Source: Cornus controversa (lineage: Eukaryota; Streptophyta; Magnoliopsida; Cornales; Cornaceae). From it: a stretch of DNA of 64,000 bases. Under the pieces are notes generated by a model, which saw only the letters and a list, made by a program, of their open reading frames with translations, was not told where the DNA came from and did not search any database. The DNA lies in the NCBI GenBank assembly GCA_026545225.1, contig CM048849.1, positions 32,622,336 through 32,686,335 on the forward strand. The letters are read 5' to 3'. Positions 3,882 through 61,154 of this stretch are shown here, in pieces. The first letter of the stretch is position 1, and each line of letters begins with the position of its first letter. The position numbers and the translations under genes are program-made.

Positions 3882-4056
3882 CATGGAGGGTCTTTCCTCC
3901 AAAACAATAGCAAATATTGGAGGACTGCACAAGATGCTTGGTTTGCATGAATATGGATTTGCTGCAGTCCTAAGGGATTCTGTTGTATGTCTTCCAGAAT
4001 GCAATAGCACTAACAAGACTGGAGCGTCTTTTGAGACTCCTTGTGGTCGTCTCTTG
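3882..4056 (+). CDS. QTRT2: QTRT2 exon A
   Basis: The acceptor TTCTACAG precedes the exon and the donor GTACTT follows it. It encodes [14 protein letters not shown] through FETPCGRLL. The first base completes a codon from a missing upstream exon. The ATG at 3883 could act as an alternative start but would omit the conserved N-terminus. Confidence 0.88.
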
Positions 4057-47900: not shown

Positions 47901-50900
47901 AGCATACTTGTTTCTTTGAGCGAATCAAGTGTATACTTCCGTTGAGAGACAGAAATGTCTTTGCTGGAACAAGCTACTTTCATGCCAAGAAAATATCTCA
48001 ATGCACCGAGATCCTTGATTTCAAATTCCTTTGTAAGAGTACTCTTTAACCGTTTCATCTCTTCTTCATGATCTCCTGTCAAGATAATATCATTCACATA
48101 TACAATGAGGATAGTAAGTTTTCCTTCAAGAGATTTCTTGATAAACAAGGTGTGATCTGACTAGCCTCGATTGTATCCATGCTTCTTGACTGCTATAGTA
48201 AACCTCTCAAACCAAGCCCTTGGTGACTGTTGAAGTCTATAAAGAGATTTCCTTAGTCTGCAAACACGGTTGGTATTGCTTAAGTCCTCAAAACTAGGAG
48301 GAATCTCCATGTAGACTTCATTTTCCAAGACTCCATTAAGGAATGTATTCTTGACATTAAGTTGGTGTAGAGGCCAACCTAAATTAGTTGCCAAGGATAG
48401 AAGTACCTACACTGTATTTAACTTAGCGACTGGGGAGAATGTTTCCTGATAATCAATCCCGTAAGTTTGATTGAATCCCTTGGCTATAAATCTCGCCTTG
48501 TATCGATCAACACTTCCATATGCCTTCTACTTAACATTGAATATCCACTTGCATCTCACAGGTTGTTTGTCTTCGGGAAGTTCTGTGAGTTCCCAAGTAC
48601 CATTCTTCTCTAAGAGCCCGAATTTCTTTATCAACTGCTTCCTTCCATTCAGGGTGCTTTAGAGCCTCTTGTATGCAGCTTGGAACATCTATGCTGGACA
48701 GATTCGAGGTAAAAGCACAGGAGGAGGGAGACAGTCTCTCATATGTCACAAAATTTGAGATCGGGTGCCAAGTGCATGACCTAACACCTTTCCTTTGAGC
48801 AATAGGAATATCAATATCCTTACTAGAATAAGAATTTATGTTACCTTGAGTAGGAGTGGCTGGATTTGGGGCGGACGCTTGGTAGGTCCCTTTGAGCGGT
48901 GGTCTGCTTTCTTGAATAAACAATCCCTTTAAATATCCTTGATTTTTCTTGTTGGGTCAAAACCTGAGGACTTTTTGGAGTGGGTTCAAAATGAATGGAT
49001 GGTTCGGGTGTTGACTCGATTAGAACAGGCACATTTGGAAGAGTGGTGGAGTTACCCAGAGGGGATGAACTTGAGTCGGTGGAAGGTACGGATGGGGTAT
49101 CCACATCTTGCCAAAACTAATATTCTTCTGGCACTATAGAATCTCCCCCTGAATATGAGTTTTGGAGTAGAAGGGCTGATTCTTAAAGAAGGTGACATCC
49201 ATTGAATTATAGAACTTCTGAGTAGTGGGAGAGTAACATTTGTAACCTTTTTGGTGAGGAGAGTATCCAAGGAATAGACATTTTATGGCTTTGGGATCTA
49301 GTTTGCTTCTCTGATGTGGAGGTATGTGGACAAACGTTGAACAACTAAAGACTTTTACTAGCAAGGACGAGATGAGTCTGGATTGAGGATAGACTTGAGT
49401 ACCTGGCACGAAGTTTGGAATTTCAAGACTTTTGAAGGCATACGATTTATGAGATAGGCAGCGGTAAGGACAGCTTCCCCCCAGAAATGTTTTGGGACAT
49501 GACTTGTGAACATGACAGAACGAGAAACTTCTAACAGGTGTCGATTTTTCTTCTCAGCTATCCCATTTTGTTGTGGTGCGTTTATGCAAGAACTCTGATG
49601 AACTATCCCATGATCTAGGAAGCACGGACACACCTAAAAGGTTGAAGAATCCGTGTCGGACACGTATCGGACACCGACACGCCCCGACACGTGTCGGACA
49701 CACCAAAATACGTGTCCTAATTTTTTTTATTTTTGGACACACCACGGACACGGCATAGACACACTATGGACACGTGTCCGACACGCGTGTCATATCGTTA
49801 GAGAGTTTTTAGAAAGTTTTAAAAAGAAAGATAGTTTAAAATGTAAATATGATGACTTCTTTGAATTTTTTTAATAAAATATAGCAGTCATATTATATAA
49901 TATTTCATTTTTTTTTTTAGAAAACAACTATTATCATTATTGTGGAGTAGATTCAATTGTGTAGTTCTTTAAACGATAAACTAATTGTTTTTATAGCTCA
50001 TTAATTATTATGATTTGTGAATTTTTCATTGTTAGGTTGATCTCATATATATAAAAAGATATAATTATTAGTCGCGTGTCCCCGCCGTGTCCGTATCCTA
50101 GTTTTTTAGGATCTGCTGTGTCGCTGTGTCCGTGTCGTGTCGTATCCGTGTCCCGTATCCGTATCTGTGCTTCTTAGCCCATGATCAAGAAGGTAATCCC
50201 CAGGAATAGAATGAAAGTATTCATTGGCATTGTCCGTTCTGAAAATCTGAACGTTGGCTAGGAATTGAGTTTGGATCATTGAATGAAATTTTTTAAAGAT
50301 TGGTCCTGCTTCAGATTTTTCTTTCATAAGGAATATCCAGGTAACTCTAGAATGATCATCAACAAAAGAGATAAACCATCATGTTCCTGTAATACTATTG
50401 ACTCGAGAGGGTCCCCAAATATTGCTATGTATAACTGAGAATGGTTGTGATTCCTTTTATGGTTGAATTGGGTAAGTATTTCGAATATGTTTGGACAATT
50501 GACAAATTTCACACTGGAAAGACTAAGTTTTTCCTAATAAATAAAGAATGAAACAACTCTTCAAGATACATGAAACTTGAGTGACCTAATCAAAAATGCC
50601 ACAACATAATTGCACTTTCATTATTGGAAACTGGAACAGAATTGGAATTTATAACAGACTAACTCTCTGCACAATGAGCACTTTGAGATTGTTTTCCAAG
50701 TTGATTTTCACTCTTGAGGAGGTAGAGCCCTTCACTTTTTTTAGCATTGCCAATTGTCCTCCCCAAATCCAAGTCCTGAAATTCACAATGAGTGGAAAAG
50801 AATTTAGCAACACAATTCATATCTCTAGTAATTTTGGTAATGGATAAGAGGTTATAAGTCAGATTAGGAACCAATAACACCGAATTTAATACAAGGGTTT

Positions 50901-52143
50901 TTGAGATGCTAATTGACCCAATACTAGCCACAGTGGATAGAGAACCATTTGCTATTCTCACTTCGTATTTTTCAGAACTCGGGTTGCACTTTTGAAATAA
51001 GGAAGCATCCCTAGTTATGTGATCAGATGCTCCAGAGTCAATAATCCATGAAGTTAGATTCTCGGTTTTGGATATGACTTTTGTTTTTATAATTTGACAA
51101 TGATTATAGCAGCTGAAATATTTCTTATTGCTTTATTCTCTTTATTATATATATATATGGATTGTAAATCCTTCCTCAAATGATGCATTTCCACCTACTT
51201 GGCTGCTGCTTATTCTCATTGCCAGTACTTGTCAGATAGATGATTTTTTCTTTTTCTTTTTTTTTTTAATGTTTTCTGAAAATAATATATATTATGTCCC
51301 ATGGAACCTCCCTGAAGTTTCTAAGATAACTTTGGCCATTCCTCATGTTTACTGAAATTATCCCATTCTTTTTTCTATTAGTTAATGACCAAATATAGTA
51401 AAGAAGGATGAAGATCTCACTTGTAATTTGATTTGGTTATTATTTTTGGAGGTAAGTGATACAGAAAAGTTTTATTCATGAAAATCCTAACGTCATTTCC
51501 ATCCTACAGCACGAGCGCCTCTATACTGCCAAAGAATGATACACACTAAAACACACCTCAATATCATTTGACATGTTACTGAGCTATTGATTATGGCATC
51601 TGTTTGTATTTTGGGTTTTACAACCATTTGATATTTAGACCAGACCTCTGTCAAGAGTTTTTTTTTTTTAGGTTAATGTAATAAGTTGTGAATTGCAGTT
51701 TATTTTCTTTCTTCCAAGTTTTTCTTCGTTCTCTGTCAATTAATTATCAGTAAAGATTAATTATTGTGCGGTGATATATTTTTCAAATTTCTTTCTTTTG
51801 GCAGGAAAGATACATCACCAATTCTTGATAGTTGTGACTGCTATACTTGCCAGAATCATACAAGAGCATACATTAATCACCTACTCAATGTCCATGAAAT
51901 GCTGGCTCAAATTCTACTAGAAATGTGCAACTTCTTTCTCACCTTTTGCTGTTGTTGATTTTTTTTCTTCTTGATTGTATGATACAAGTTTTTAATATAT
52001 TTTGCAGACATAACACTCACCATTATCTGGGGTTCTTCCGCGCAATCAGGGGAGCAATCCACGAAGGGAAGTTTGAGGAATTTCGGCAAAAGTTCATTGA
52101 AAGTAGGTGTGATAATCTTTTCACAGCTTCTCTATGTGCATGA
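3882..52143 (+). CDS. QTRT2: Queuine tRNA-ribosyltransferase accessory subunit 2 (nine exons, N-terminus missing)
   Basis: QTRT2 is the non-catalytic partner of QTRT1. Together they exchange guanine-34 for queuine in tRNAs with GUN anticodons (Asp, Asn, His, Tyr). Nine exons at 3882-4056, 4167-4325, 5421-5514, 24188-24258, 35777-35828, 36281-36329, 36421-36558, 51805-51924 and 52008-52143 total 994 nt. All joins keep phase and give 330 residues plus a stop. Diagnostic stretches are [59 protein letters not shown] and the zinc site CDCYTC with a downstream His in LLEIHNTHHY, as in TGT-family enzymes. Introns around the middle exons are 11-19 kb and full of transposons. The first 70-80 residues expected for the family are not visible, so the gene is 5'-incomplete here or begins upstream of the window. 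No frameshift or stop was found, so it looks functional or only recently lost. Confidence 0.88.
4167..4325 (+). CDS. QTRT2: QTRT2 exon B
   Basis: Acceptor GCATACAG and donor GTAAAT bound 53 complete codons running from [15 protein letters not shown] through [15 protein letters not shown]. The intron before it is only 110 bp. Confidence 0.9.
4372..4425 (-). mobile_element. Short LINE 3'-end remnant
   Basis: GGCGCTCAAGAGGGGAGCGC is nearly the same, in reverse orientation, as the 3' untranslated end of the L1-like family seen at 10846-10870 (minus strand) and 34925-34950 (plus strand). Only about 50 bases remain, so this is a severely 5'-truncated or eroded copy within the intron. Confidence 0.5.
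4608..5015 (-). other. Gly/Arg-rich open frame of unknown origin
   Basis: A 135-codon minus-strand frame starts [12 protein letters not shown] and has a run of GR/GG repeats before a plainer segment containing [10 protein letters not shown] and PRFKITLSK. The composition resembles the start of some retrotransposon gag or RNA-binding proteins, but no diagnostic motif is visible. It lies antisense inside a QTRT2 intron and its last third is low-complexity. A PRFKIT-like stretch recurs in the adjacent minus-strand frame near 5130. I do not recognise it and give no function. Confidence 0.3.
5421..5514 (+). CDS. QTRT2: QTRT2 exon C
   Basis: The acceptor ends CTGTAG and the donor is GTTACT. The exon encodes [20 protein letters not shown] through VVRRNVS and leaves one base of the next Gly codon. 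It is followed by the largest intron of the gene. Confidence 0.88.
5531..5608. repeat. 40-bp tandem duplication at the start of the large intron
   Basis: TTCATTTTTTGTTATCTTGC begins at 5531 and again at 5571, with the rest of the 40-bp unit conserved apart from one or two substitutions. Confidence 0.8.
5609..6077. other. Intron sequence, nothing recognised
   Basis: AT-rich intronic sequence with a short TA repeat near 6003-6015. No element boundaries or coding signals were seen. Confidence 0.4.
7713..8296 (+). repeat. 5' LTR of the gag-only copia element
   Basis: 584 bp, beginning TGTTAGGTTGACTC. It has a TATA-like GCACTATAAATAG about 170 bp in. It differs from its partner by a deletion of a few tens of bases and scattered substitutions, so the insertion is not very recent. 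Confidence 0.85.
8404..8666 (+). pseudogene. Copia gag N-terminal fragment
   Basis: The ATG at 8404 opens [16 protein letters not shown], followed by [20 protein letters not shown], the typical start of a copia gag. The frame is lost after KGKDGIMES and continues one frame over as [14 protein letters not shown] through [10 protein letters not shown], so one frameshift splits it. There is no zinc knuckle, protease, integrase or reverse transcriptase. The remaining internal sequence to 9188 carries no recognisable domain. Confidence 0.8.
9189..9735 (+). repeat. 3' LTR of the gag-only copia element
   Basis: 547 bp, preceded immediately by a polypurine tract. It is colinear with 7713-8296. Confidence 0.85.
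9990..10215. repeat. LTR-internal cluster of TTTCGATTATGCGAAA-like motifs
   Basis: At least six copies of a 10-16 bp motif of the form TTTCGATTATGTGAAA, GATCATGCGAA or AATCGAAATGC occur here in direct and inverted orientation. The same style of cluster is at 63060-63285 in the related LTR. Being kept in two diverged LTRs suggests an element-specific regulatory or structural role. That role is inference. Confidence 0.6.
10593..10807. other. Intron sequence between the solo LTR and the LINE
   Basis: No gene or repeat boundary was recognised in this short stretch. Confidence 0.35.
10897..11594 (-). pseudogene. LINE ORF2 C-terminus with zinc-binding RT tail
   Basis: The minus-strand reading has [22 protein letters not shown], a Cys-X2-Cys...His...Cys pattern of the zf-RVT domain found after LINE reverse transcriptases, preceded by a [14 protein letters not shown] segment. 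It is broken by a frame change near 11290-11330. It is the 3' continuation of the RT at 16786-18502. Confidence 0.8.
11612..11861 (-). repeat. 3' LTR of the copia element at 11612-16771
   Basis: On the plus strand it begins TGTAAACGAATATT and ends ATTCGTTAACA, giving the short inverted termini usual for LTRs. A polypurine tract adjoins on the internal side. Confidence 0.93.
11869..12467 (-). pseudogene. Copia RNase H
   Basis: The minus-strand reading has [32 protein letters not shown] and [20 protein letters not shown], the conserved acidic and histidine blocks of copia RNase H. It is divided by a frame change near 12140. It ends a few codons before the polypurine tract. Confidence 0.88.
12464..13362 (-). 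pseudogene. Copia reverse transcriptase
   Basis: [60 protein letters not shown] and the catalytic [12 protein letters not shown] are all present in order. A frameshift around 12900-12930 separates the palm halves and another lies near 12465. The residues needed for catalysis are present, but no continuous protein can be made. Confidence 0.9.
13347..14969 (-). pseudogene. Copia integrase and linker region
   Basis: The zinc-binding HHCC part is split between frames (HHFRLGHPS near 14700 and [11 protein letters not shown] near 14620). The catalytic core shows [13 protein letters not shown] near 14490 and [19 protein letters not shown] near 14140. The C-terminal part includes [17 protein letters not shown] near 13940, followed by an acidic linker into the RT. 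There are at least four frame changes. The protein would have joined element cDNA to host DNA. Confidence 0.85.
14948..15011 (-). repeat. 32-bp tandem duplication in the copia pol region
   Basis: GATTTACAGAAAGCTTAGGC begins at 14948 and again at 14980, and the full 32-bp unit is repeated exactly. Since 32 is not a multiple of three, it shifts the frame just downstream of the protease. Confidence 0.92.
14951..16291 (-). pseudogene. Copia gag-protease open frame (446 codons)
   Basis: It starts [14 protein letters not shown] and has a typical copia gag body ([47 protein letters not shown]). The zinc knuckle [14 protein letters not shown] lies near residue 265, with Arg in place of the usual Gly. 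The protease motif [11 protein letters not shown] is near residue 370. Gag packages element RNA and the protease matures the polyprotein. The frame is open from gag into protease and is then cut short by the 32-bp tandem duplication, so the pol part is not translated in frame. Confidence 0.88.
16501..16521 (-). promoter_or_regulatory. Primer-binding site of the copia element
   Basis: The minus strand reads TGGTATCAGAC immediately inside the 5' LTR, matching the 3' end of initiator methionine tRNA for most positions. This is where first-strand cDNA synthesis would start. Confidence 0.8.
16522..16771 (-). repeat. 5' LTR of the copia element at 11612-16771
   Basis: 250 bp, about 98% identical by eye to 11612-11861, followed by the AAGCT target duplication. 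Confidence 0.93.
16786..18502 (-). pseudogene. LINE reverse transcriptase
   Basis: A 385-codon frame (17345-18502) carries [62 protein letters not shown] and the catalytic [14 protein letters not shown], the ordered blocks of an L1-clade reverse transcriptase. The thumb and connection continue at 16899-17255 ([19 protein letters not shown]) in another frame. The domain primes on nicked target DNA. Frame changes near 18505 and 17300 break ORF2. Confidence 0.9.
18512..19592 (-). pseudogene. LINE AP-type endonuclease
   Basis: Minus-strand reading: KIVSWNVQG near 19580, a broken middle, [19 protein letters not shown] near 19170, and [20 protein letters not shown] spanning about 18955-19020. These are the nuclease metal- and phosphate-contacting blocks. 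A frame change after SWNVQG, in-frame stops near 19400, and another frame change near 18990 make it inactive. Confidence 0.8.
19552..20651 (-). pseudogene. LINE ORF1-like region
   Basis: Two frames lie upstream of the endonuclease: 20040-20651, which is Ser/Lys/Glu-rich and starts [13 protein letters not shown], and 19552-20040, which starts [16 protein letters not shown]. Their position and hydrophilic composition fit the C-terminal, variable part of a plant LINE ORF1, but no RNA-binding motif or zinc knuckle is visible, so the call rests mainly on position. Confidence 0.55.
20746..21124. other. Intron sequence, nothing firm
   Basis: It contains GTTACCCAGACTCAGG and CTGGGTACGGGGACTCGG in loose inverted arrangement near 20754-20838, which may be a MITE remnant. 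No target duplication was found. Confidence 0.3.
21125..21785 (-). mobile_element. Copia 5' end fragment (LTR, PBS, start of gag)
   Basis: An LTR-like segment at 21493-21785 starts TGTAGAAAAATGAG and ends ACACAACA on the plus strand. It is joined internally to a PBS complement (GGCTTTGATACCATG) and a gag start at 21429. The rest of the element is missing, so it is truncated after about 100 gag codons. The LTR contains an internal tandem repeat around AATTCCTAGGAATCAGGCAG (about 21695-21755). Confidence 0.8.
21130..21429 (-). pseudogene. Copia gag N-terminus, truncated
   Basis: It starts [15 protein letters not shown] and continues [41 protein letters not shown] and [12 protein letters not shown], which is typical for a copia gag of the family with a UBN2-like domain. 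It ends by stop after 99 codons, where homology also stops. Confidence 0.82.
22050..22284. mobile_element. MITE remnant related to the element at 49615-50177
   Basis: The repeated GTATCGGATACATG, GTATCAGACACGTC and GTATCCGTACTTCCTAG words match in style the right half and right terminus (CCGTATCTGTGCTTCTTAG) of the hAT-type MITE at 49615-50177. The left end was not found. The LINE fragment at 22285 begins right at its terminus. Confidence 0.45.
22285..23966 (+). mobile_element. 5'-truncated L1-like LINE
   Basis: It opens inside the reverse transcriptase (a [18 protein letters not shown] reading near 22310-22370). It continues with [51 protein letters not shown] and GGVGVWKIF, then a decayed zinc-binding tail, and ends in a 17-base poly-A at 23950-23966. 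The order and wording match the LINE at 10808-20745, so it is the same family in the opposite orientation. Multiple stops and frame changes are present. Confidence 0.85.
24188..24258 (+). CDS. QTRT2: QTRT2 exon D
   Basis: The acceptor TTGTATGCAG and donor GTAAGATT border 71 bases. Two bases complete the Gly codon from exon C, then [20 protein letters not shown] and AVI follow. This exon sits alone between introns of 18.7 and 11.5 kb. Confidence 0.9.
24259..24677. other. Start of the 11.5-kb intron, nothing recognised
   Basis: AT-rich intron with a short TG/TA microsatellite near 24602-24625. No mobile-element boundaries were seen. Confidence 0.4.
24681..25123. mobile_element. Harbinger-like MITE (443 bp)
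   Basis: The left end CACTGTATTTGGTGGGAGGG and the right end, read inverted as TGCTGTTTGGTACGA, form imperfect terminal inverted repeats flanked by TTA at 24678-24680 and 25124-25126. A 3-bp TTA/TAA target and a CTGTTTGGT-like terminus are typical of PIF/Harbinger MITEs. It has no coding capacity and contains a long (AT)n tract. Confidence 0.55.
24938..24974. repeat. (AT)n microsatellite
   Basis: An uninterrupted run of AT dinucleotides of about 37 bases lies inside the MITE. Confidence 0.9.
25127..25560. other. Intron sequence, nothing recognised
   Basis: AT-rich intron without coding signals or repeat termini. Confidence 0.4.
25562..25890 (-). mobile_element. Probable gypsy LTR fragment
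   Basis: The plus strand begins TGTATCACGACCCAATTTC, which resembles the inverted 3' terminus of gypsy LTRs such as TGTCACGTCTCAAATTCC at 44234. Only about 330 bases remain and the other end was not found, so the call is tentative. Confidence 0.42.
26040..27418 (+). pseudogene. LINE reverse transcriptase fragment
   Basis: Blocks in order are [50 protein letters not shown], the catalytic [19 protein letters not shown] (near 26930) and [15 protein letters not shown]. The segment between the second and third blocks (about 26450-26600) contains roughly 110-150 bases that do not match the family. The longest surviving open frame is 26813-27418, ending at a stop within the palm/thumb region. Confidence 0.85.
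27522..28016 (-). repeat. 3' LTR of the gypsy element
   Basis: 495 bp. The internal end carries TGGTGCAGAGCAAG on the minus strand, preceded by a GGAGGGA purine tract. The outer end reads TTGCATTA, an unusual LTR terminus that does not end in CA. Confidence 0.85.
27941..28395 (-). pseudogene. Gypsy integrase C-terminal remnant
   Basis: The minus-strand reading [34 protein letters not shown] and [18 protein letters not shown] corresponds to the end of a gypsy integrase (GPY/F-like segment). It follows the RNase H frame directly, with the catalytic DDE core missing. At least one stop or frame change lies near 28230. Confidence 0.82.
28392..29810 (-). CDS. Gypsy reverse transcriptase-RNase H, open frame
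   Basis: A continuous 472-codon frame carries [49 protein letters not shown], the catalytic [13 protein letters not shown] (near residue 145) and then RNase H blocks [16 protein letters not shown] and [15 protein letters not shown] copies element RNA and RNase H removes the template strand. The frame enters the start of integrase ([11 protein letters not shown]) and then hits a stop at the deletion junction near 28404. Upstream it is separated from protease by stops near 29812. The domain itself looks intact. Confidence 0.9.
30089..31714 (-). pseudogene. Gypsy gag and protease
   Basis: The start [18 protein letters not shown] (31714) is in one frame. The main body is a 412-codon frame (30089-31327) with the capsid-like stretch [13 protein letters not shown] and [14 protein letters not shown], the zinc knuckle [14 protein letters not shown] and the aspartic protease motif [13 protein letters not shown]. 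The two frames meet near 31340-31370, so gag carries one lesion. The function would be RNA packaging and polyprotein processing. Confidence 0.88.
31736..31747 (-). promoter_or_regulatory. Primer-binding site of the gypsy element
   Basis: The minus strand reads TGGTATCAGAGC, a perfect match to the 3' end of plant initiator methionine tRNA, two bases inside the 5' LTR. Confidence 0.92.
31750..32247 (-). repeat. 5' LTR of the gypsy element
   Basis: 498 bp, colinear with 27522-28016, followed by the GAGAG target duplication. Confidence 0.87.
33006..33988. other. Intron sequence between two LINE pieces
   Basis: AT-rich, without coding or repeat signals that I can recognise. Confidence 0.4.
33990..34985 (+). 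mobile_element. 5'-truncated L1-like LINE tail
   Basis: The reading has [32 protein letters not shown] and [20 protein letters not shown]. It then has a degenerate zinc-binding segment ([22 protein letters not shown], with one Cys replaced by Arg) and a 3' untranslated end GACGCTCTCCCCATTTGAGC. It corresponds to the last 20% of the family seen at 10808-20745. No poly-A is visible at its end. Confidence 0.82.
35020..35405 (+). mobile_element. RTE-clade LINE 3' end
   Basis: The plus-strand reading EMRMLR*MLRVT, then [26 protein letters not shown] and VADPI followed by ATGATGATGAT is the characteristic C-terminus and trinucleotide-like tail of plant RTE elements. It is decayed, with several stops. 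It is a different LINE type from the L1-like copies around it. Confidence 0.72.
35406..35776. other. End of the 11.5-kb intron
   Basis: AT-rich intron ending in the acceptor GTAATGCTCAG. No other feature was seen. Confidence 0.4.
35777..35828 (+). CDS. QTRT2: QTRT2 exon E
   Basis: 52 bases between AATGCTCAG and GTATCAG encode [17 protein letters not shown] and one base of the following Glu codon. This matches the EDKPR(L/V)ISG-type loop of the family. Confidence 0.9.
36281..36329 (+). CDS. QTRT2: QTRT2 exon F
   Basis: 49 bases after TTTCTTGCAG and before GTATGTTG. They encode [16 protein letters not shown], the strand and helix that in TGT enzymes lines the base-exchange pocket region, and leave two bases of a Thr codon. 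Confidence 0.9.
36421..36558 (+). CDS. QTRT2: QTRT2 exon G
   Basis: The acceptor CTCTTTTAAG and donor GTATCTGA bound 138 bases. They encode [18 protein letters not shown] through [11 protein letters not shown], with two bases of an Arg codon left for exon H after the 15.2-kb intron. Confidence 0.9.
36850..36962. mobile_element. MITE remnant of the GAAGCACGGACAC family
   Basis: TTTAAGAAGCATGAACAC, repeated GACACTTCATGAACAC-like words and ATGTGTCCACAA resemble a decayed left half of the element at 49615-50177. There is no right terminus, because copia-derived sequence starts at about 36963. Confidence 0.35.
38531..40268 (-). pseudogene. LINE reverse transcriptase (second family)
   Basis: Blocks read in order are [76 protein letters not shown], the catalytic [18 protein letters not shown] (near 39250) and [19 protein letters not shown]. 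The frame is broken at several places (around 39510, 39325, 39100 and 40050). The enzyme would prime reverse transcription on nicked target DNA. Confidence 0.87.
40511..41294 (-). pseudogene. LINE endonuclease (second family)
   Basis: It starts [20 protein letters not shown] at 41294, with [10 protein letters not shown], then [21 protein letters not shown] (near 40880) and [15 protein letters not shown] (near 40620), the ordered nuclease motifs including the Asn and the terminal Ser-Asp-His. A frame change near 41060 and another near 40730 disrupt it. Confidence 0.85.
42352..42834. mobile_element. MITE-like inverted-repeat element within the solo LTR
   Basis: The left arm GGGTTAAGTGCAAAAAAACC and the inverse of the right arm GGGTTAAGTGAAAAAAACAC continue in similarity for about 45 bp through CTATATACAGAATGTGCAAA, giving long terminal inverted repeats. 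The target duplication was not resolved. It has no coding capacity. Confidence 0.65.
42399..42419. repeat. 21-base poly-C tract
   Basis: An uninterrupted run of 21 cytosines followed by GAGGCGGCC. Its length may be unstable or mis-assembled. Confidence 0.9.
43211..43400. repeat. 95-bp tandem duplication in the copia linker
   Basis: The unit TTCAGAAAG...GATCAGGACACTTA occurs at 43211 and 43306 with a few changes. On the minus strand it duplicates the [14 protein letters not shown] segment of the integrase-RT linker. Confidence 0.88.
44234..46520 (-). mobile_element. Ty3/gypsy solo LTR
   Basis: 2287 bp between TGTCACGTCTCAAATTCC and GATTTTTTATT-type sequence ending GAGGTTTTACA (plus strand), flanked by the perfect 5-bp duplication TCTTG at 44229-44233 and 46521-46525. 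It shares the GGGTTAGTAACCCATAAAG-like segment with the LTR at 61155-63592. There is no PBS, coding region or second LTR. It carries an (AT)n tract at 44957-44992. Confidence 0.87.
44957..44992. repeat. (AT)n microsatellite
   Basis: About 36 bases of uninterrupted AT/TA repeats inside the solo LTR. Confidence 0.9.
46871..47137 (-). repeat. 3' LTR of the copia element at 46871-51085
   Basis: On the minus strand it starts TGTGGAATTTCGG right after the purine tract. The outer border near 46871 is approximate. It contains a tandem repeat of AACTCCTTGATTCTAGGAAG at about 46968 and 46999. Confidence 0.6.
47145..48600 (-). pseudogene. Copia reverse transcriptase-RNase H
   Basis: RT blocks [40 protein letters not shown] and the catalytic [15 protein letters not shown] (VNDD-like: the usual YVDD reads YVND, so one catalytic Asp is replaced by Asn) are followed by RNase [20 protein letters not shown] and [20 protein letters not shown] in a clean 200-codon frame (47145-47747). 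The Asn substitution alone would be expected to disable polymerisation. Confidence 0.88.
48531..50961 (-). pseudogene. Copia protease end and integrase, split by a MITE
   Basis: Pieces read in order are [20 protein letters not shown] near 50850, [13 protein letters not shown] sequence near 50500, a [12 protein letters not shown] segment near 50370, [20 protein letters not shown] near 50270, [20 protein letters not shown] near 49570, [20 protein letters not shown] near 49470 and [18 protein letters not shown] near 49300. The MITE at 49615-50177 lies between the second and third catalytic regions. Confidence 0.82.
49615..50177. mobile_element. hAT-type MITE (563 bp) in copia integrase
   Basis: The left end CTAGGAAGCACGGACAC and the inverted right end CTAAGAAGCACAGATAC are terminal inverted repeats, flanked by a perfect 8-bp duplication CCCATGAT at 49607-49614 and 50178-50185. 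An 8-bp target is characteristic of hAT elements. Both subterminal regions are packed with GTGTCCG/CGGACAC words. It has no coding capacity. The open frames across it are chance. Confidence 0.9.
51086..51804. other. Last part of the 15.2-kb intron
   Basis: AT-rich intron with poly-T runs and the acceptor TTTTGGCAG. Nothing else was recognised. Confidence 0.4.
51805..51924 (+). CDS. QTRT2: QTRT2 exon H (zinc-binding cysteines)
   Basis: 120 bases encode [18 protein letters not shown] through [13 protein letters not shown] and AQILLE, with two bases of an Ile codon left. The three cysteines (codons at 51833, 51839 and 51848) form the C-X-C-X2-C part of the TGT-family zinc site. Confidence 0.93.
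52008..52143 (+). CDS. QTRT2: QTRT2 exon I (C-terminus)
   Basis: After an 83-bp intron, the exon completes Ile and encodes [20 protein letters not shown] through KFIESRCDN and LFTASLCA, with the stop TGA at 52141-52143. The first His is the expected fourth zinc ligand. Confidence 0.93.
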
Positions 52144-52172
52144 AATATAATATTATCTGGGCAAATTTTAGT

Positions 52173-52821
52173 TCGGGATATACATTCTATTTTAGTAGAT
52201 TGTATCTCCTTTCAAATTACATGACTGATTAAGAGGAAATTGGTGAGTAACATAGATCATCTATTATACAGCAATACTCAGACTTGACGGTGTTTTTAGA
52301 TGGGATAATGATTTTTCTTCGGAATTCGACTGCTTCCGAATGTGTTTTGTGAGTGGGGTGGTGAGCCCCCCACATGACATGAGTTTGAAAACTGCTGAAT
52401 TTGGCATCTGTATCGTTACTCTTTAAGACGTAAGATGTGATTAATTAACACTGGTCATTCCAAATTATTACTATATAGTGCAATATCTCCCAATTTTTCT
52501 CAAACAAACCATCTCTACATGTCTCAAAAGTGTTTACACTATCACATTCTAAAAAAAATTGTGATACAATAAACATTCAGGTTTAGATCATGATGTAAAC
52601 TTACAGATTAAATTTATACTACTGTAAATAATAATTGAAAAAAAAACTACTGTTATGTCCAAATGTGGATGAGATTTAATTTTTTAAATTGGCAAATAAC
52701 AAGACAAGATATTTTTGTTCACAAACCAATATTTGTCCTCCTTGTGACCAAATTCTGTGATGTTGATTTCGTACACGTCTCTTTTACTCTCGTGATTTTG
52801 ATAGAATCTACCCATTTTGTC
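52173..52821. other. 3' flank of QTRT2
   Basis: AT-rich. AATATAATATTATC just after the stop and AATAAA-like words may serve polyadenylation, but none can be assigned with confidence. Confidence 0.35.
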
Positions 52822-53183
52822 ATGACAAAATACAATAAATAGAGTAAGGCTCTGTTTGGTAGAATTTTTGTTTTGACTTTTATACAAAAAAAAAAGATAA
52901 GCAGAAGCTAAATGAGGAAGTTGATATCCACTAACTTTCTTTAAATACTCTTTTTAGACTCTGAAGCTCTGCAGCCTTATCAATCCAAACACTTTTCAAA
53001 ATGACTTTTAAACTTGAAAAATTAAAAGTTACTTTTCAAAAGTCCATCCAATCAGGGCCTAAATAGTGATAAATAAATCTAACTAATGGAGCATAACTGA
53101 AAGAGAGAGAGAGAGAGAGAGAGAGACAAAATACAATAAATAGAGTAAGTAGTGATAAATAAATCTAACTAATGGAGCATAAC

Positions 53184-53217
<34 letters not shown>

Positions 53218-53300
53218 ACAAAATACAATAAATAGAGTAAGTAGTGATAAATAAATCTTACTAATGGTGCATAACTGCAAGAGAGGGAGAGGGAAAACAT
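52822..53300. repeat. Three-unit minisatellite with GA tracts, one unit split by a MITE
   Basis: The unit TGACAAAATACAATAAATAG ... GTAGTGATAAATAAATC ... GAGCATAACTG followed by (GA)n occurs three times. The first copy is interrupted by the element at 52848-53059. The second starts near 53126 and the third near 53217. GA tracts are at 53101-53125 and 53187-53213. Confidence 0.88.
52848..53059. mobile_element. Harbinger-like MITE (212 bp)
   Basis: The left end GGCTCTGTTTGGTAGA and the inverted right end GGCCCTGATTGGATGG are terminal inverted repeats, with TAA at 52845-52847 and 53060-53062. The intact neighbouring minisatellite units show the empty site (AGAGTAAGTAGTG), confirming the insertion and the 3-bp duplication. 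Confidence 0.85.
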
Positions 53301-53606
53301 GAGTGACTGCATTGTAGGAATGAAAACAAATCTTAATTCACAAATAACGTAGTGACCTAAAGAAGTAACTGTCCATCCCCTCAACCACAAGCATAGCAAC
53401 AACAAGCAATCTATGCAAAGAAAGATGTGAAATGGTCTTTTGAATTGAAATTTTGTCTAAAACTCCTATAACGTTGGCCATTTTTTTTTCTCTAGGATCC
53501 AGTTCCGCACCAAAATAACTCTCGAGAATCCGAAAAATAAGGTGAGAGAAGGTAAGGCGTTCCACTTCTTGTCAAGTTTGATGAGAATCATGTGCCTTGT
53601 CACGGA
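53301..53606. other. Short unannotated stretch
   Basis: No gene or repeat boundary was recognised. Confidence 0.35.
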
Positions 53607-53614
53607 TTTGGGCT

Positions 53615-54216
53615 ACACCCATGAATGAATTAGATTTTGATTCGAATACGGTCCGATAACTCGGATATGAATTGAATATTTAATCCGATAATCTATTAAT
53701 GATTTGAATTTGATAATTCGTTTAGTTAACAAATTAGATATAGACAAATATAATATATGATATACTATACACAATGTTATCTATCATTCAATTGGTGTGC
53801 ATTAATTTCACAAAAAAATCAATAAAAGATATTGGTTACATAGTAGTTTATTATAGTTATTTCAAACTTTCTTCCTACTTTTAATTATTTTCTCCCTCCT
53901 ATTGAATTTTTTTTTCACTCTATTATTTTCTCTTAAGTTAGAATCAAAAGTTAGATCTTTATTCTCTTTTCTTGTTCATATTTTTTTATCTTCTCTCTTT
54001 CTCTCACTTTTTCTAATTTATAGTTTCAAATTTTTAACAAATATTACAAATTTTAACAAATCGGATCAAATATCCAATAAACTGCAAATCGAATATGGAT
54101 TGAATAAGATATAATTTATGAGGTTAAGAGATCAGATCAGATCACATTTACTCCTTACCAGATTCGGATCATATCAGGTCAGATCTGGTCTAAATTCGAT
54201 CCATTGATAAGTTTAA
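53615..54216. mobile_element. hAT-type MITE (602 bp)
   Basis: Flanked by the perfect 8-bp repeat TTTGGGCT (53607-53614 and 54217-54224). The ends ACACCCATGAATGAATTAG and, inverted, TTAAACTTATCAATGGATCG are weakly matching inverted repeats. The interior is rich in TCCGATAATCCG-like words, similar to the element at 55402-56006. Confidence 0.78.
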
Positions 54217-54273: not shown

Positions 54274-54910
54274 TAGGGGTGCACACGGTACGGTTCTTGG
54301 TGGAACCGGAACCGTTCCCAACGGTTCCTTAATTTTGGAACCGGAACCAGACCGTTGAGTTCGGTTCGATTCCGGTTCCTCAATGGTTCATTGTCAACTT
54401 TTTTTTTTTTTAAACATTAGCAAGATACACACTCATACTTTTGCACCCCTAGTTATAACAATAGATTAAAAGCTATTAGTATTTACTTATATATATATAT
54501 ATCTTATATTTTATAAATATATAGAACATTAGAACTTAGAAGCTAAATGTATTTATCTATATATTATATATTTTACTTTATAAATAAATAGAACACTATA
54601 ATTTAGAATGTATTAGTATTTATTTATATATTATCTATTTTATACTTTGTATATTTATTTATTTATATAGAACACTAGAAACTAGAAGCTATTATTATTC
54701 ATTTATATATTATATATATATTTTTTTCTAATGGTTCCAGTTCTGGTTCTGGTTCCTTGACTTGGAACCGGAACCGGAACCGGAACCGTAGTAAATGGTT
54801 CCTAAAATTTGGAACCTGAACCGTAGTGAACGGTTCAGTTCAATTCAGGTATGGTTTTTTACGGTTTCGATTTCGGTTCAAGTTCTACCGATTCTTTGTG
54901 CACACCCCTA
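54274..54910. mobile_element. hAT-type MITE (637 bp) with GGAACCGGAACC repeats
   Basis: The terminal inverted repeats TAGGGGTGCACAC and TAGGGGTGTGCACA (right end inverted) are flanked by a perfect 8-bp duplication GTCGAGAC at 54266-54273 and 54911-54918. Both subterminal parts are dense in GGAACCGGAACCG and its complement, so the element can fold on itself. Confidence 0.92.
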
Positions 54911-54918
54911 GTCGAGAC

Positions 54919-55393
54919 AACTTAGTGTGATCTTTTGTTTGGATTATGTGTTTTCCCTAGTTCTTGTTCCTGCGGTTATGGGTTCACCTATGGAGTTTTC
55001 TTGAAGCCTAAGAAGCAATGGAGTTAGTGTTCTTGAAGGTCACTTGGAGACCAAGAAGACTAGATTCTTTATTTTGATTTCTAGAATTTGGATCAATCCA
55101 TGAGACTTTGTTATTATTATGTTTTGATGATATTATTTTATTATTCATGCATAATAATATGTTAATGCATTTTTATCTATGAAATTAAAGTTATGATGTT
55201 ATTATTTGTTTTTTAATTAAATTTTGGGAGAATTGGATTGGAATTGAATTTCTAGAATTATTGGACATGCTTTCATATTAAAATAGTATTTAAAAAGATT
55301 TCTTAAAATATTTTGGAAATTTTTTATTCTTAAAAACTCTATTCTTGGAAAATTACCTGTTTTGAAAGTTACTACTTTAGAAATAGAAAGCAT
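54919..55393. other. Unclassified AT-rich sequence between MITEs
   Basis: It contains TTCTTGAAGGTCACTTGGAG and similar sequence that may belong to an old LTR. No PBS, coding region or partner repeat supports it. Confidence 0.3.
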
Positions 55394-55401
55394 GTGATAA
55401 T

Positions 55402-56006
55402 TAGACTTGTCAATGAATCGGATTTTGATTCAAATCTGATCCGAATCCAAGCCAATAATTAGGATATGAATTGGACATTCAATCCGATAATCCGTTAGCG
55501 ATCCGAATCCAATAATCCGTTAGCTAAACAAATCGGATATGAATTATGGTCAATCCAATCCGATAATAATCCGATCCGAAATAATTTATTTTAAATATAT
55601 TATTTAATGTTATAACATATAATATTTACATACTATTTAAATATTTTTTTTTCATTATTTCCTTTTTATTCTTCCTTCTCTCTATTTTGTCTTTCATTAT
55701 AGTTTTTTTCTTTAGTAAAAAGTCAAATACTTACATTTCTACTACTTTTGTCTTTATATTTTATTTTTCTTCCCTATTTTTTTCCTACTCATTATTTGTT
55801 AATCTCTTTTAAATTAATTTTTTTTAAATAAAAAAAATTATATTTTTTTCGAATCGGGTTATCAAATCAGATATCTAATTAATAAAAAATCGGATATGAA
55901 TTTAATTATATATAATTCGTCGGGTTATCGGATTGCCTATATTCCTTATCGGATTCGGATCTGATCAGGCCTGATCCGGTCTAAATCCGATCCGTTTACA
56001 GGTCTA
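55402..56006. mobile_element. hAT-type MITE (605 bp)
   Basis: The left end TAGACTTGTCAATGAATCGG and the inverted right end TAGACCTGTAAACGGATCGG are flanked by a perfect 8-bp repeat GTGATAAT at 55394-55401 and 56007-56014. The subterminal regions are rich in ATCCGATCCGA words. Confidence 0.92.
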
Positions 56007-56014
56007 GTGATAAT

Positions 56015-56989
56015 GTAGGTCCATTTCTCTCTAAATTTGATGAAAAATAAATAATAACATAATTATATATTTTTGCATGCATGGGATGTATGTTGGATAA
56101 ATGATAACTCTCGGTTGAAAATTTTAAGTGGAAGAGGGGTTTCAATACAAAACCTCACGACCTTTCATTATTTACCTATACAGTAAGATAATTAAATTAT
56201 TCACTGTACGGAGGATTTTTTTAATTATTGATTACAAATATGGTTTCTTAATGAATAGATATATATTTGATCTAAAAATAAATAATTTTCACCCTACGGA
56301 AGGAATTATTTATTTTTAGAAAGACAATATATTTTCATAAAGGAGTGATAATATTATACACTAGATCTAGACTTATGAAAAAATAATATTATTAATTGAG
56401 CAATGAAACACAATATGAAATTATTTCATGATTTTGTATCATGAATGATGTAACAGGTAACAATTCTATATTTATAAGAATCCCACAATCAATAAATCTC
56501 TATTTTTCATTATTATTTTCCATTATTTTAGGAGATAAAATTAAATGGTGAGTTAGTATTGGTGTGATTTTCCTATATACGGAGTCATGATGGTATTATT
56601 ACCTACTACATAGATTCGAGTTAAAATTGGTGAAATAAAATCGTAAAATTTAGCATTTCCCTTATTTATTTCTAGAAAGGCTTAGGTCAAATCAGGAGTC
56701 ATTTACATTTGGCATAAGATAGTCTAGATCGTGTCAAATGATGGGGGTAACACCTAACAAGTTAGTAATTGCATGTTTTCGCTACGGAAACAATGTATTC
56801 TAATTTGGTTATTAGTGGTTACGAGGATCCACTTGTGATTATTTGCATTTTTATGCTAATTTACCATTACTTATGTATGAACGATTTATTATTTAGATAT
56901 TAAATATATTGAATTCATTCAACCCACTTGTCACTGTTCCCTAAAAAAACATGTCAACTGGGCCTAATTGAGTTGACTAGAAGTACAAT
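56015..56989. other. Unclassified repeat-like sequence
   Basis: One 63-codon frame (56128-56319) and phrases such as GAAAATTTTAAGTGGAAGAG and CAAAACCTCACGACC look like non-coding retroelement sequence, but no defining feature is present. It could be part of the copia element whose gag resumes at 57410. Confidence 0.3.
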
Positions 56990-56997
56990 ATCAAAAT

Positions 56998-57401
56998 TAG
57001 GGTTATCAATTTAACTCACCCCGCCCCATCCCGTCCTGTCCCTAATGGGACAAGTTTGGAATCATACTAATCGGGTTAGGGGCTGATTTGGGAAGAGAGT
57101 TTAAAACCCGCTAAGCTAAATATATAAATAAATATTCTTTTATTAATTATAATTTTTATTTTTTTCCATTAGCTATGATAATTTTAAATTTTAACATTTT
57201 TTTATTATCATTTATAAATATTTGTCTATACTTAATTTTTTTTTATGAAGTTTATGATAAATTCGTTCAAGCTTGCATTATATTTCTTTAAAAATATATA
57301 TATCGGGACACCCCGAAGAGGATTTGGGAAAGATTTTTTATTCGTGGGACGAGTTTGGGAAAGGGGTACCCCGTCCCGAACCCACCTCGTTGACATCCCT
57401 A
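56998..57401. mobile_element. hAT-type MITE (404 bp)
   Basis: The left end TAGGGTTATCAATTTAACTC and the inverted right end TAGGGATGTCAACGAGGTGG are flanked by a perfect 8-bp duplication ATCAAAAT at 56990-56997 and 57402-57409. Subterminal CCCCGCCCCATCCCGTCC and its counterpart are GC-rich. It may have inserted into copia gag sequence. Confidence 0.9.
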
Positions 57402-57469
57402 ATCAAAATGCATTCACTTTTGATTGTTATGTTTTTCATCCTGTAGAGAATCCTGTAGAGCTAATGGGA

Positions 57470-57600
57470 AAGAGGAAGAAAAAATAGGAAGATTAGTCAC
57501 ACCAAAAGGGAAAGTGTTTCCTTTGTGGTGAAAAAGGGCACTGAAAGAAGATTGTGCTAAGTATCCGACAAAGAAAAGAATATAACTATCTTTGTCATTA
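57470..57600 (+). pseudogene. Copia gag zinc-knuckle remnant
   Basis: The reading KGKCFLCGEKGH, then a stop or lost base, then KKDCAKYPTKKRI in the next frame gives the CCHC knuckle Cys-X2-Cys-X4-His-X4-Cys of a copia gag with a frameshift inside it. Upstream Lys/Arg-rich residues (GKRKKK) fit the family. Confidence 0.78.
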
Positions 57601-57617
57601 AGGCATGTTAATCTTTA

Positions 57618-58010
57618 ACTAAAATTTGCCCAGATAATATTATATTTCATGCACATAGAGAAACTGGGAAAGGATTATCACACCTACTTTCAATGAATTT
57701 TTGTTGAAATTCCTCAAACTTCCCTTTGTGGATTGTTCCCCTGATTGCACAGAAGATACCCCAAATAATGGTGAGTGTTATGTCTGCAAAATATATTAAA
57801 AGCTTTGTGTCATATAAACATAAAAACAACAACAAAATGTGAGAAAGAAGTTGCACATTTCTAGTAGAATCTGAGCCAGCATTTCATAGACATTGAGTAG
57901 GTGATTAATGTATGCTCTTGTATGATTTTGGCAAGTATAGCTGTCACAGCTATCAAGAATTAGCGATGTATCTTTCCTACCAAAAGAAAGAAATCAGAAA
58001 AGTATATCAC
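57618..58010 (-). pseudogene. Inverted partial copy of QTRT2 (exons H-I and intron)
   Basis: The minus strand matches 51771-52172 from before the exon H acceptor to about 30 bp beyond the stop, including the short intron, so the copy arose from DNA or unspliced RNA. Exon H differs at about 7 of 120 positions. The codon at 57940-57942 changes the second zinc Cys to Ser, and NVHE becomes NVYE. In exon I one extra base near 57755 (GGGGTATCTTC for GGGGTTCTTC) shifts the frame. It has no start, promoter or upstream exons. It cannot encode a working protein, but it is antisense to the transcription direction of its copia host. Confidence 0.92.
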
Positions 58011-58011
58011 A

Positions 58012-59130
58012 TCACAAGCATCTCGGAGTTGGAACATACATTTTGATCAAGCAATCAAGTCCTTTGGTTTTGATCAAAATGTAGATGAACCTTGTGTGTA
58101 CAAGTAGATTCGGGATAGAATGGTAATATTTCTTGTTCTCTATGTTGATATATTACTCATTGAAAATGATGTAGGGGCATTGTCAACAATGAAGGTATGG
58201 TTGTCCAACCAATTTGATATGAAGAACTTGGAAGAAGCTAACTACATTCTTGCAATTAAGCTTTTGCGAGATCGCAAGAAAAAGATCATAGCTCTCTGCT
58301 AAGCTGCATATATTGATAAGATCTCAGGTTTGCAATGCTAGATTCCAAGAAGGGTTTCTTACCCCTTCAAACATAGAATCCCTCTATCCAATGATCATTG
58401 TTCTAAAACACCTAAGGAAAAAGAAGCAATGAGGCTAGTACCATATGCTTCAGCAGTTAGTAGTTTCATATATGCTATACTTTGCACTAGATCAAATATT
58501 AGTTATGCAGTTGTCATGATCAACATATATCAATCCAATCTTGAAAAGGAGCATTGGATAATAGTGAAACACATTCTCAAATATTTGAGAAACATCAAGG
58601 ATCACATGGTAGTTTATGGAGGATATGAGGTAGTTTCAGTCAATTACATAGATTTTGATTTTCAATGAGATAAGAATTCCAGAAAATCAACCTCTAGGTA
58701 TGTGTTTATGGTTAATGGAAGAGCTATCAGCTGAAAGAGTGTAAAATAATCTTATACTGCTGACTCTACCACGGAGGTTGAATATGTTGTCCCCTCGGAG
58801 ACAACTAAAGAAGTTATATGATTTAGAAATTTCCTCGTGGATCTAGAAGTTATACCAAGTCCTAGCTCGCCAGTTGTCATTTATTGTGATAATAATAGAG
58901 CAATAGCTCAGTGCAAAGATCCTAGATATCAAAAGTGTGGTAAGCACATAGAGATGAAGTATGATCTGATTAGAGAGAGTGCATAGAGGCAACATTGACA
59001 TGGCCAAAATAGCATTGGCGAACAACCTTACATATCCTTTTACGAATACACTGCTAGGAAAGTCTTTTGATCTTTATAGAGAGAGCATGAGTGTTAGATG
59101 TGAGAGTGATTGGTTTGAGTGCAAGTAGGA
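58012..59130 (+). pseudogene. Copia RT C-terminal half and RNase H
   Basis: The plus-strand reading QASRSWNIHFDQAIKSFGFD, VIFLVLYVDILLIENDVG (YVDD reads YVDI, so the second catalytic Asp is lost), MRLVPYASAVSSFIYAILCT, HILKYLRNIKDHMVVYGGYE, TADSTTEVEYV and VIYCDNNRAIAQCKDPRY covers the end of RT and RNase H. Several stops and frame changes break it. It ends just before GTGCAAGTAGGAGAT, the purine tract. Confidence 0.87.
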
Positions 59131-59133
59131 GAT

Positions 59134-61154
59134 TGTTAGGTTTGTATGTGCCCTACAAAGCAATTTTTTTGTAATTTTGATATTTATACTTGATAAATTT
59201 TGTTTATTTATCTTCTTACATATATAGTGAATGCTTGTATTGATTAATTCATGAGTTATGAATTAAGTGTCCATTAATTATGATAAGATGATTTATATAT
59301 ATATGGGGGTTTCCTAAGTATATTAGATATAAATCATCGATATTCATAACTATAAATTAGTTCACATTCTTTAATAGAATTGGGCTTTCTATTAGGAAGA
59401 ATGTAACACATTGGTTTCTACTTGTTAGGGTGACTTATCTTTATCATCCGAGTAGAAAACTCAAAACCATATGTGTTGGTGTGTTTGGACACACTGAACT
59501 GGATTAAGAATAAATAAAAAAATACTTGAGTCATCATGAATAATTTTTCTTATCATTACTAAAGCAAATAAACTCTTAATCTCGAGAGATTTATGGACTC
59601 TAATTCATGGTAATGGTTACTGTGATTTATATGAGTGACTTGCGGGTTAACACACTTGGGTGTTTTGAGTAATTAATGATTATAGACTTTGAAAAATACT
59701 TTTCAAGATGGAATCCATGTGGTGTTTATATTTTGGTTTGCTTTATTTTGTGATAGGACTTTAAGACTATGAAAATTGATTGTAATGATTATTAGAATCC
59801 TAGTCCTAGGGTTGACAAATTTCGTAGAACAAAACTCACTCAATGAATTGTAATTCTTATTATTTTTAGTGAGTCAAGTAATATAATAGGCTGTTAGATG
59901 TTGTTAAGAATGAAGACTACACTTGGTGAAGATCCTACTTCAAAGGGCAATCATGTCAATTTAGTCTACTCAAAGGACAATGGTGTTATCTTCTCAAATT
60001 TGAGGATATAAAGGTAAATATCACCCTTATATATATCATCTACCACCATCTAGGTTTATTCATACATATCTTATGTGTGTTACATACATCTAGAACCTTC
60101 AATTTTTTAAATATTTATATATATATGTTTATTTTTTACGACATTAAGAAAAATATGTCATTCATGTTTATATATGTGTGTGCGTGAGAGTATGTGTGTG
60201 TGACTCTTCAGAATTTTCTCATATATATTTACATAGATATTTTCCTTAATGTATTAAGAAAGGTTATATATATGCAAATAAACTATTTATGCTAAGTTTC
60301 TAAGTTGTCTTAACTTGCTAGGTAATTGTTTATGCATATAAGTAAAATTTTCCTTGCATTCACTTATGGTTAATTTGTCAAGTCCATAAAGTTTCTTAAA
60401 ATGTTTAGACATTGCTTGTGCATTAAGAAAATACCTTTGATTCAACAGACTTCATGATTGAAGTTCCGATTGATTGAAACTACTTGTAGCATCGACCGCC
60501 GAAACTTCAGTATAGTCTCGATCGATTGTAGCTTACGGTAGCTTCGATCGCAGAGACTTGTATATAGCTTGATCGAAGTATAGTAGGGTATCTATCGCAG
60601 AAAGTTAAGAACTCAGGATTACTTTCCAAAAAAGAGTTTTCTTATCCCAGAAGTATGTAGACTTATTTTCTAAGACAAGTTACATATAAATATTAGTGTT
60701 TAACATTAACCCTAGTATGTTATGTGGCCAAGAGTGCTAAGAACTACCTTATGCATTCAATTACTCTCTTGAATTAACATTTAGATTTGTAAGAATGTTT
60801 TATTTGTTTCTTTATCCACGAGAGTCTGTGTTCTTCACATACACATATTTTTGAGAGATCATCTTGTGAGATTAGAGGGCATACATATTGACAGGTTTAT
60901 ATCTATTATTTTTTATCATCATTCATTATATCATAAGTCTTAGATATAGATTAGCTTGGTGATATCATTCATCATGCATACATGGTAGAAATGATTTAAT
61001 CAACATATTTGAATGTTGATACAATTGTTGTGGTATTATGTTATAAACGACAACATCAACACTTTGTGTTTGAGTAAACGCATGATTACTCAATCGGTGG
61101 ACAATTAGTGGTAGAAAGTAGATTTAAAAGGAAGAAGCAAAGTTCAAGTGTACT
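59134..61154 (+). repeat. Copia 3' LTR (right end uncertain)
   Basis: It starts TGTTAGGTTTGTATG right after the purine tract. A candidate end AACATCAACA lies at 61052-61061, which would give a 1.93-kb LTR. A cluster of CGATCGAT-like motifs lies at 60460-60600. No partner LTR is in the window to fix the border. Confidence 0.6.
60460..60600. repeat. CGATCGAT motif cluster in the copia LTR
   Basis: TTCCGATTGATTG, GCATCGACCGCCGAAAC, TCTCGATCGATTGTAGC, GCTTCGATCGCAGAGAC and GCTTGATCGAAG follow in series. They have the same design as the clusters at 9990-10215 and 63060-63285 in gypsy LTRs, although the host element is different. Confidence 0.55.

Follow-up and report, generated by a model that had tools for sequence, protein, structure and literature searches.

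Repair patches and gene capture in transposable elements

Repair-mediated duplications of proximal DNA into vertebrate transposable elements were described by Pace et al. 2009 (PMC2671141). In that report, microhomology combined with a deletion and filler forms the largest class, accounting for 10 of 39 proximal events, while 58 of 1,136 cases have their match further off on the same chromosome, and distant cases were not classed with confidence. Plant filler DNA has been described at the maize p2/p1 genes (PMC2686159), at rice transposon excision sites (PMC4423477, PMC5023962) and in connection with gene movement in wheat (PMC3445842), with excision fillers defined up to several kb (PMC5023962). 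A different route is represented by elements of the maize Bs1 type, in which a piece of a host gene lies between LTR-element sequences (PMC13317346).

Here we describe a copia retrotransposon of Cornus controversa that is interrupted by an inverted, intron-containing piece of the neighbouring QTRT2 gene. The window, a 64-kb stretch at C5:32622336-32686335, was compared with the plant's own assembly (771,699,077 bases in 61 contigs). We consider it very probable that the element was patched by templated repair of a DNA break with the nearby QTRT2 end, through synthesis-dependent strand annealing (SDSA) or an equivalent replication template switch. On our best reading, the case is a well-resolved natural example of an already known repair process, and not a gene captured by a mobile element.

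The locus shares much with the vertebrate events (PMC2671141). A transposable element is broken up by a piece that occurs at just one other place in the genome, the donor is nearby, and the breakpoints combine microhomology, filler and a deletion; chimeric patches occur occasionally in that set, and the 401 bp found here fall below the 619-bp maximum of its proximal events. Unlike those events, the present one is in a plant, and two further differences count against the repair reading: the donor distance of 5.4 kb falls just outside the 5-kb cut of the proximal class, and the deletion of 2.0 kb is far above the 1-15 nt of the human set. Plant fillers (PMC2686159, PMC4423477, PMC5023962, PMC3445842) resemble our case in their local templates, in complex filler drawn from two sites, and in deletions of hundreds to thousands of bp. 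However, most of them are much smaller than ours (50 bp; 1-131 bp; a mean of 13 bp with a maximum of 123 bp), and a patch of 400 bp, long beside the 1-131 bp of plant fillers (PMC2686159, PMC4423477), is again a point against repair. The Bs1 type (PMC13317346) is similar in having a host gene piece between LTR-element sequences, but here no second carrier element was found, and the piece is inverted, retains its intron, lies beside its source and has joints of the repair type.

The QTRT2 fragment and its source

Two stretches of the window are related as donor and copy:

51764..52173, plus strand: donor, the QTRT2 3′ end (BLASTN, exon mapping, protein homology)
57617..58017, minus strand: copy of the donor, inverted and with its intron (BLASTN, exon comparison, genome search)

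When 50000-54000 was compared with 55500-60500 by BLASTN, these stretches aligned in opposite orientation with 370 of 412 positions identical (90%), 13 gap columns and an E value of 7e-149. The preliminary description had paired 51771-52172 with 57618-58010 and proposed aligning the donor with the reverse complement of the copy; the alignment confirms that match and lengthens it slightly. On the BLASTN coordinates, 5,443 bp separate donor and copy, against the ad hoc proximal limit of 5 kb (PMC2671141). A second match between the two ranges covered 50 bp of A/T-rich DNA (E 0.001). A repeat finder recovered this pairing, split into three inverted arms (202, 157 and 48 nt), and comparison of the 64-kb window with itself (word size 11, at least 60 bp) returned no further copy.

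The donor comprises 41 bp of intron, an exon at 51805-51924, an 83-bp GT-AG intron at 51925-52007, an exon with the stop codon at 52008-52143, and 30 bp 3′ of the stop. Exon mapping thus bears out what had been read from the letters, namely two exons separated by an 83-bp intron, and a further 30 bp after the stop codon. In the copy, the exons correspond to 57857-57976 and 57647-57783, the latter with a 1-bp insertion, and the intron to 57784-57856, where it measures 73 bp (11 bp deleted, 1 inserted).

The spliced donor end is similar to PDB chains that carry the name queuine tRNA-ribosyltransferase accessory subunit 2, with a best E value of 6.6e-18. A stitched QTRT2 query found 127 homologues, with several named plant QTRT2 proteins among the 120 listed. 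Plant homologues place nine exon stretches between 3850 and 52140: approximately 3850-4050, 4167-4331, 5391-5522, 24163-24273, 35774-35833, 36274-36351 and 36422-36559, plus the last two exons. Because these stretches run from near 3850 to the last two exons, the gene as predicted by homology (3850-52143) is at least 48 kb long. Its introns contain reading frames that, from their translations, we take to be copia, gypsy-type and LINE-type relics. One intron also holds a direct duplication, 7712-8294 and 9188-9733, with 90-92% identity and copies about 1.45 kb apart, which are possibly the LTRs of a short element. Judged by eye, the last long intron carries a second copia relic (46900-51130, minus strand) with an apparent interruption near 49610-50180.

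Of 399 aligned sites, 32 differ between donor and copy (24 transitions and 8 transversions; K2P 0.086), and three indels also separate the two. The differences include ten amino-acid changes, at nine of which plant homologues agree with the gene and at one with the copy; the other six codon differences are all silent. This comparison used the 52 of 62 homologues with at least 60 aligned residues, and a cysteine lost in the copy is cysteine in 52 of 52. The gene has five CpG sites and the copy one. Changes from C or G in the gene to T or A in the copy number 16 against 8 in the opposite direction, which is not significant alone (P 0.15) and points the same way. Since homologues side with the gene at nine of ten changes, the cysteine is universal among those compared, and CpG stands at five against one, QTRT2 is the source and the copy its decaying partner. 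The insert would have decayed since insertion as non-coding DNA. At the substitution rate of 1.3e-8 quoted in PMC2686159, a rate not calibrated for this plant, the divergence of 0.086 corresponds roughly to 3 to 7 million years.

The same differences bear on whether the duplicate is an artefact of assembly. If an error of assembly had doubled the stretch, the two versions should hardly differ, and the 32 substitutions and three indels leave an artefact with almost no probability.

The interrupted copia element

The copy lies within the following features:

54991..56997, plus strand: copia 5′ leader and start of gag (matches to the C7 relative)
56998..57401, no strand assigned: 404-bp non-autonomous hAT-like insertion in copia gag (inverted ends)
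57410..57610, plus strand: C-terminus of copia gag with zinc knuckle, copia ending at 57610 (Pfam zf-CCHC, genomic relatives)
58015..59113, plus strand: second half of copia reverse transcriptase (RT) and RNase H (protein matches)
59134..59749, plus strand: 3′ LTR, reaching at least this far and starting TGTTAGG (matches to L023, L024, L025 and the C7 relative)

On the left, pieces of leader and gag matching the C7 relative lie at 54991-55285, 56025-56068, 56118-56323 and 56662-56997; the protein match for the start of gag is weak alone (E 3e-4, with 1 of 20 shuffles reaching 1.6e-4). The zinc knuckle scores 25.6 bits against Pfam zf-CCHC (cut-off 20.8), using a 27-residue piece joined across a frame change, with X at a stop. 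On the right, the RT piece scores 23 bits against Pfam RVT_2, below the cut-off of 31.6, and has 7 in-frame stops in 321 codons (58015-58977). With stops written as X, the RT and RNase H query found 280 proteins, with Pfam RVT_2 in the 120 listed. When these 120 copia proteins were searched against the window by tblastn, 119 had a match on the RT side; 74 had one on the gag side, in many cases a weak one. From codon 58015 onwards, where similarity to RT sets in again, 119 of the 120 align, with alignment starts at 58003 or 57991. The placement of the fragment between the gag zinc knuckle and RT, as first described, therefore holds, with zf-CCHC on its left and RT resuming at 58015.

The distance between these landmarks shows what has been lost. 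Both the zinc knuckle and a YG[LI]KQ motif occur in 71 of the 120 listed proteins, spaced 676-691 residues apart in 50 of the 71 (range 47-724); in the window the corresponding DNA would make about 150 codons and consists mostly of QTRT2. Of the four same-genome relatives with a gag end, L035 gave no match to the motif; in the other three, the distance from that end to the RT Q codon is 1999, 2011 and 2029 bp, compared with 421 bp in the window (57594 to 58015). About 2.0 kb, comprising protease, integrase and half of RT, is thus missing from the element, in agreement with the earlier observation that copia coding sequence is absent at the insert. Of the Ty1/copia series (gag CCHC knuckle, protease, integrase, RT of RVT_2 type, RNase H), the knuckle, RT (RVT_2 below the Pfam cut-off) and RNase H are present here and protease and integrase are deleted, but in L050 the copia polyprotein match runs past gag to residue 595.

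The 3′ LTR matches L023 to 59748, L024 to 59749, and L025 in two places. In the C7 relative, a match to the window's 3′ LTR (59217-59748, 82%) lies upstream of matches to 54991-56997 and then 57451-57610. Because the C7 relative holds LTR-, leader- and gag-matching stretches in order, the left and right halves are, by sequence similarity, of one family. The idea that the two sides came from different elements, raised by a 5′ leader without clear similarity to the 3′ LTR, was dropped, as the C7 relative has both. No 5′ LTR was recognised in the 64-kb window, where comparison with the C7 relative gave only matches of 34 and 49 bp (E 0.004 and 0.012). One scan of viral contigs for relatives found none.

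The 8-bp target duplication that bounds the hAT-like insertion in gag is perfect: ATCAAAAT stands at both 56990-56997 and 57402-57409. In relative L044/L049 the two sides are adjacent. We presume it to be a hAT element from the 8-bp duplication. Its end lies about 0.2 kb upstream of the QTRT2 copy, and capture by a DNA transposon of Pack-MULE, hAT or Helitron type, involving this neighbour, might be entertained for that reason. The QTRT2 piece, however, lies outside the hAT-like element and is joined directly to copia, and no transposon ends were seen by eye in the junction sequences; such a capture is extremely unlikely.

Some 155 kb upstream, a relative from this copia family, L024 (C5:32525149-32525625), has an internal RT deletion of its own, with query positions 1-131 and 780-1109 lying 14 bp apart. 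L026 shows a small local duplication at about 3031-3180, where the RT segment's first 125 bp find two matches. At 54280-54910 in the window, GGAACC-rich stretches repeated at 54302 and 54776 resemble another short inserted element.

Junctions

Both joints between copia and the copy can be read at base level:

57611..57616, plus strand: six filler bases, ATCTTT, neither copia nor main donor (genomic relatives)
58015..58017, plus strand: CAA common to donor and copia, the 3-bp microhomology of the right junction (eight relatives)
51751..51760, minus strand: possible second short template, with the sequence TTAATCTTTA that also stands at the copy's left junction

At the right junction, the Q codon is CAA in seven of eight readable relatives and CGA in one. 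The base before it is G in seven and C in one, differing from the donor's in all eight. The donor strand reads A-CAA-T at this point, so the overlap with copia is exactly CAA. The eight relatives are L010, L015, L017, L022, L023, L024, L026 and L027; L007 and L027 are one place and were counted once, L004 and L006 are the places of L023 and L026, and the count leaves out L005, L008, L009, L012, L014 and L020.

At the left junction, matches from the gag search end at 57610 in four of five relatives and at 57608 in one, and the relatives there read TGTGG (L046 and L047 read alike). Four more relatives have TGTGG, TGTGA or CGTGG, from 20 loci examined, 16 of them without a match. The window instead has ATCTTT, followed by the donor copy from 57617. 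A left microhomology of AAC, guessed from protein relatives, was dropped, as the genomic relatives read TGTGG or similar.

Within the 64-kb window, TTAATCTTTA occurs only at 57608 (plus strand) and at 51751-51760 (minus strand). The latter ends at 51760, 4 bp outside the donor end at 51764, and is inverted like the copy. Three of its ten bases are copia, one is donor and six are new. In controls run once this match had been noticed, 5 of 5000 random 14-mers from the window matched the donor flanks equally well, and among 5000 random pairs of flanks 76 did so with the junction. As the match preceded its test, it is suggestive only, and hints at a second small template for the filler. No poly(A) was seen on reading the junction sequences. 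There is also no target-site duplication: the copia ends that meet the insert are 2.0 kb apart in relatives.

These joints weigh against a history that starts with an inverted segmental duplication of the QTRT2 end and only afterwards brings in copia pieces to its left and right. Local inverted duplication does occur in TE-rich plant DNA. Here, however, the flanks are parts of a single copia family in collinear order, with a gap of 6 bp to the copy at the left and an overlap of 3 bp at the right. Two such insertions are hard to credit, and we regard this order of events as very unlikely.

Search of the genome for other copies

A search of the 772-Mb assembly with the fragment yielded two candidates, both of which matched: the fragment itself and QTRT2. 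No third was returned by this search, which scores the best candidates only and skips very common words. The RT part has at least 42 matches in the assembly (140 candidates, 40 scored), and the gag part six including itself. The preliminary description had proposed looking for other copia copies with the fragment between gag and RT: none emerged from the assembly search, and the piece was in none of 46 fetched copia loci, some of which overlap and not all of which span gag to RT. Its suggestion of a local origin is upheld, the sole other match in the genome search being QTRT2, 5.4 kb away.

In a retrotransposon capture, reverse transcription would have switched to unspliced QTRT2 RNA and the chimera would then have inserted beside its source gene. 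Copia flanks the piece on both sides in the right order, and plant LTR elements do take up gene pieces (PMC13317346). Yet a piece common to several family copies, or paired LTRs, by which gene capture is recognised, was not found here, and capture by reverse transcription was set aside in view of the missing third match and the 46 loci without the piece. The intron, whose loss by splicing would mark an RNA origin, is also kept (its 83 bp are present as 73 bp), the joints show six foreign bases and microhomology, as in repair, and the element looks older than its insert. Moreover, we estimate the chance of landing within about 6 kb of the source to be of the order of 1e-5 in 772 Mb. Capture by the element is consequently a highly improbable account of the locus.

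A proposed model of templated repair

Templated repair is favoured because it accounts at once for an inverted piece that kept its intron, a donor close by, the deletion, the microhomology and the six-base filler. The preliminary description had offered two origins; the filling of an internal deletion with local DNA has been retained, and capture by the element, from unspliced RNA or through template switching, has not. We infer that an already dead copia element suffered a break and lost about 2.0 kb. A free copia end would then have copied nearby DNA, perhaps taking its first few bases at 51760-51751, and next about 400 bases of the QTRT2 3′ end, from 52173 down to 51764, in inverted orientation. 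The new strand would finally have joined the other copia end through the 3-bp CAA match. The process could have been synthesis-dependent strand annealing on an ectopic template (filler DNA, or ‘repair-mediated duplication’) or replication template switching, and the same evidence fits either.

The age of the element is consistent with this order. Simulated decay at a divergence of 0.086 gives seven or more stops with P of 0.005, 0.022 and 0.028 under three mutation biases, stops that may come from a defective parent. Against L023 the window has a K2P of 0.19 over 1710 sites, against L024 values of 0.116, 0.186 and 0.241 in three pieces, and across ten alignments to five loci values from 0.116 to 0.363; such distances date the split of copies, not the insertion. 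Both results suggest that the copia element is older than the insert, but a parent that was already defective, or copies that separated long ago, would produce the same picture.

Implications

At base level, the locus illustrates how a retrotransposon can come to contain an intron-bearing gene piece that it did not capture. Some gene fragments counted as ‘captured by LTR elements’ could be repair cases of this kind. A simple test, whether a piece is genomically unique and has its source close by, helps to separate repair from capture. Junctions resolved to the base from same-genome relatives, together with the possible second patch, also make this a good teaching case.

The patch leaves two inverted copies of the QTRT2 3′ end, each of about 400 nt, 5.4 kb apart. 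If both arms were co-transcribed, they could form a hairpin giving rise to putative small RNAs that would dampen QTRT2 and thus queuosine modification of tRNA. We think this a very slim prospect, drawn from the arrangement of the arms; if true, a repair scar would be acting as a young small-RNA locus.
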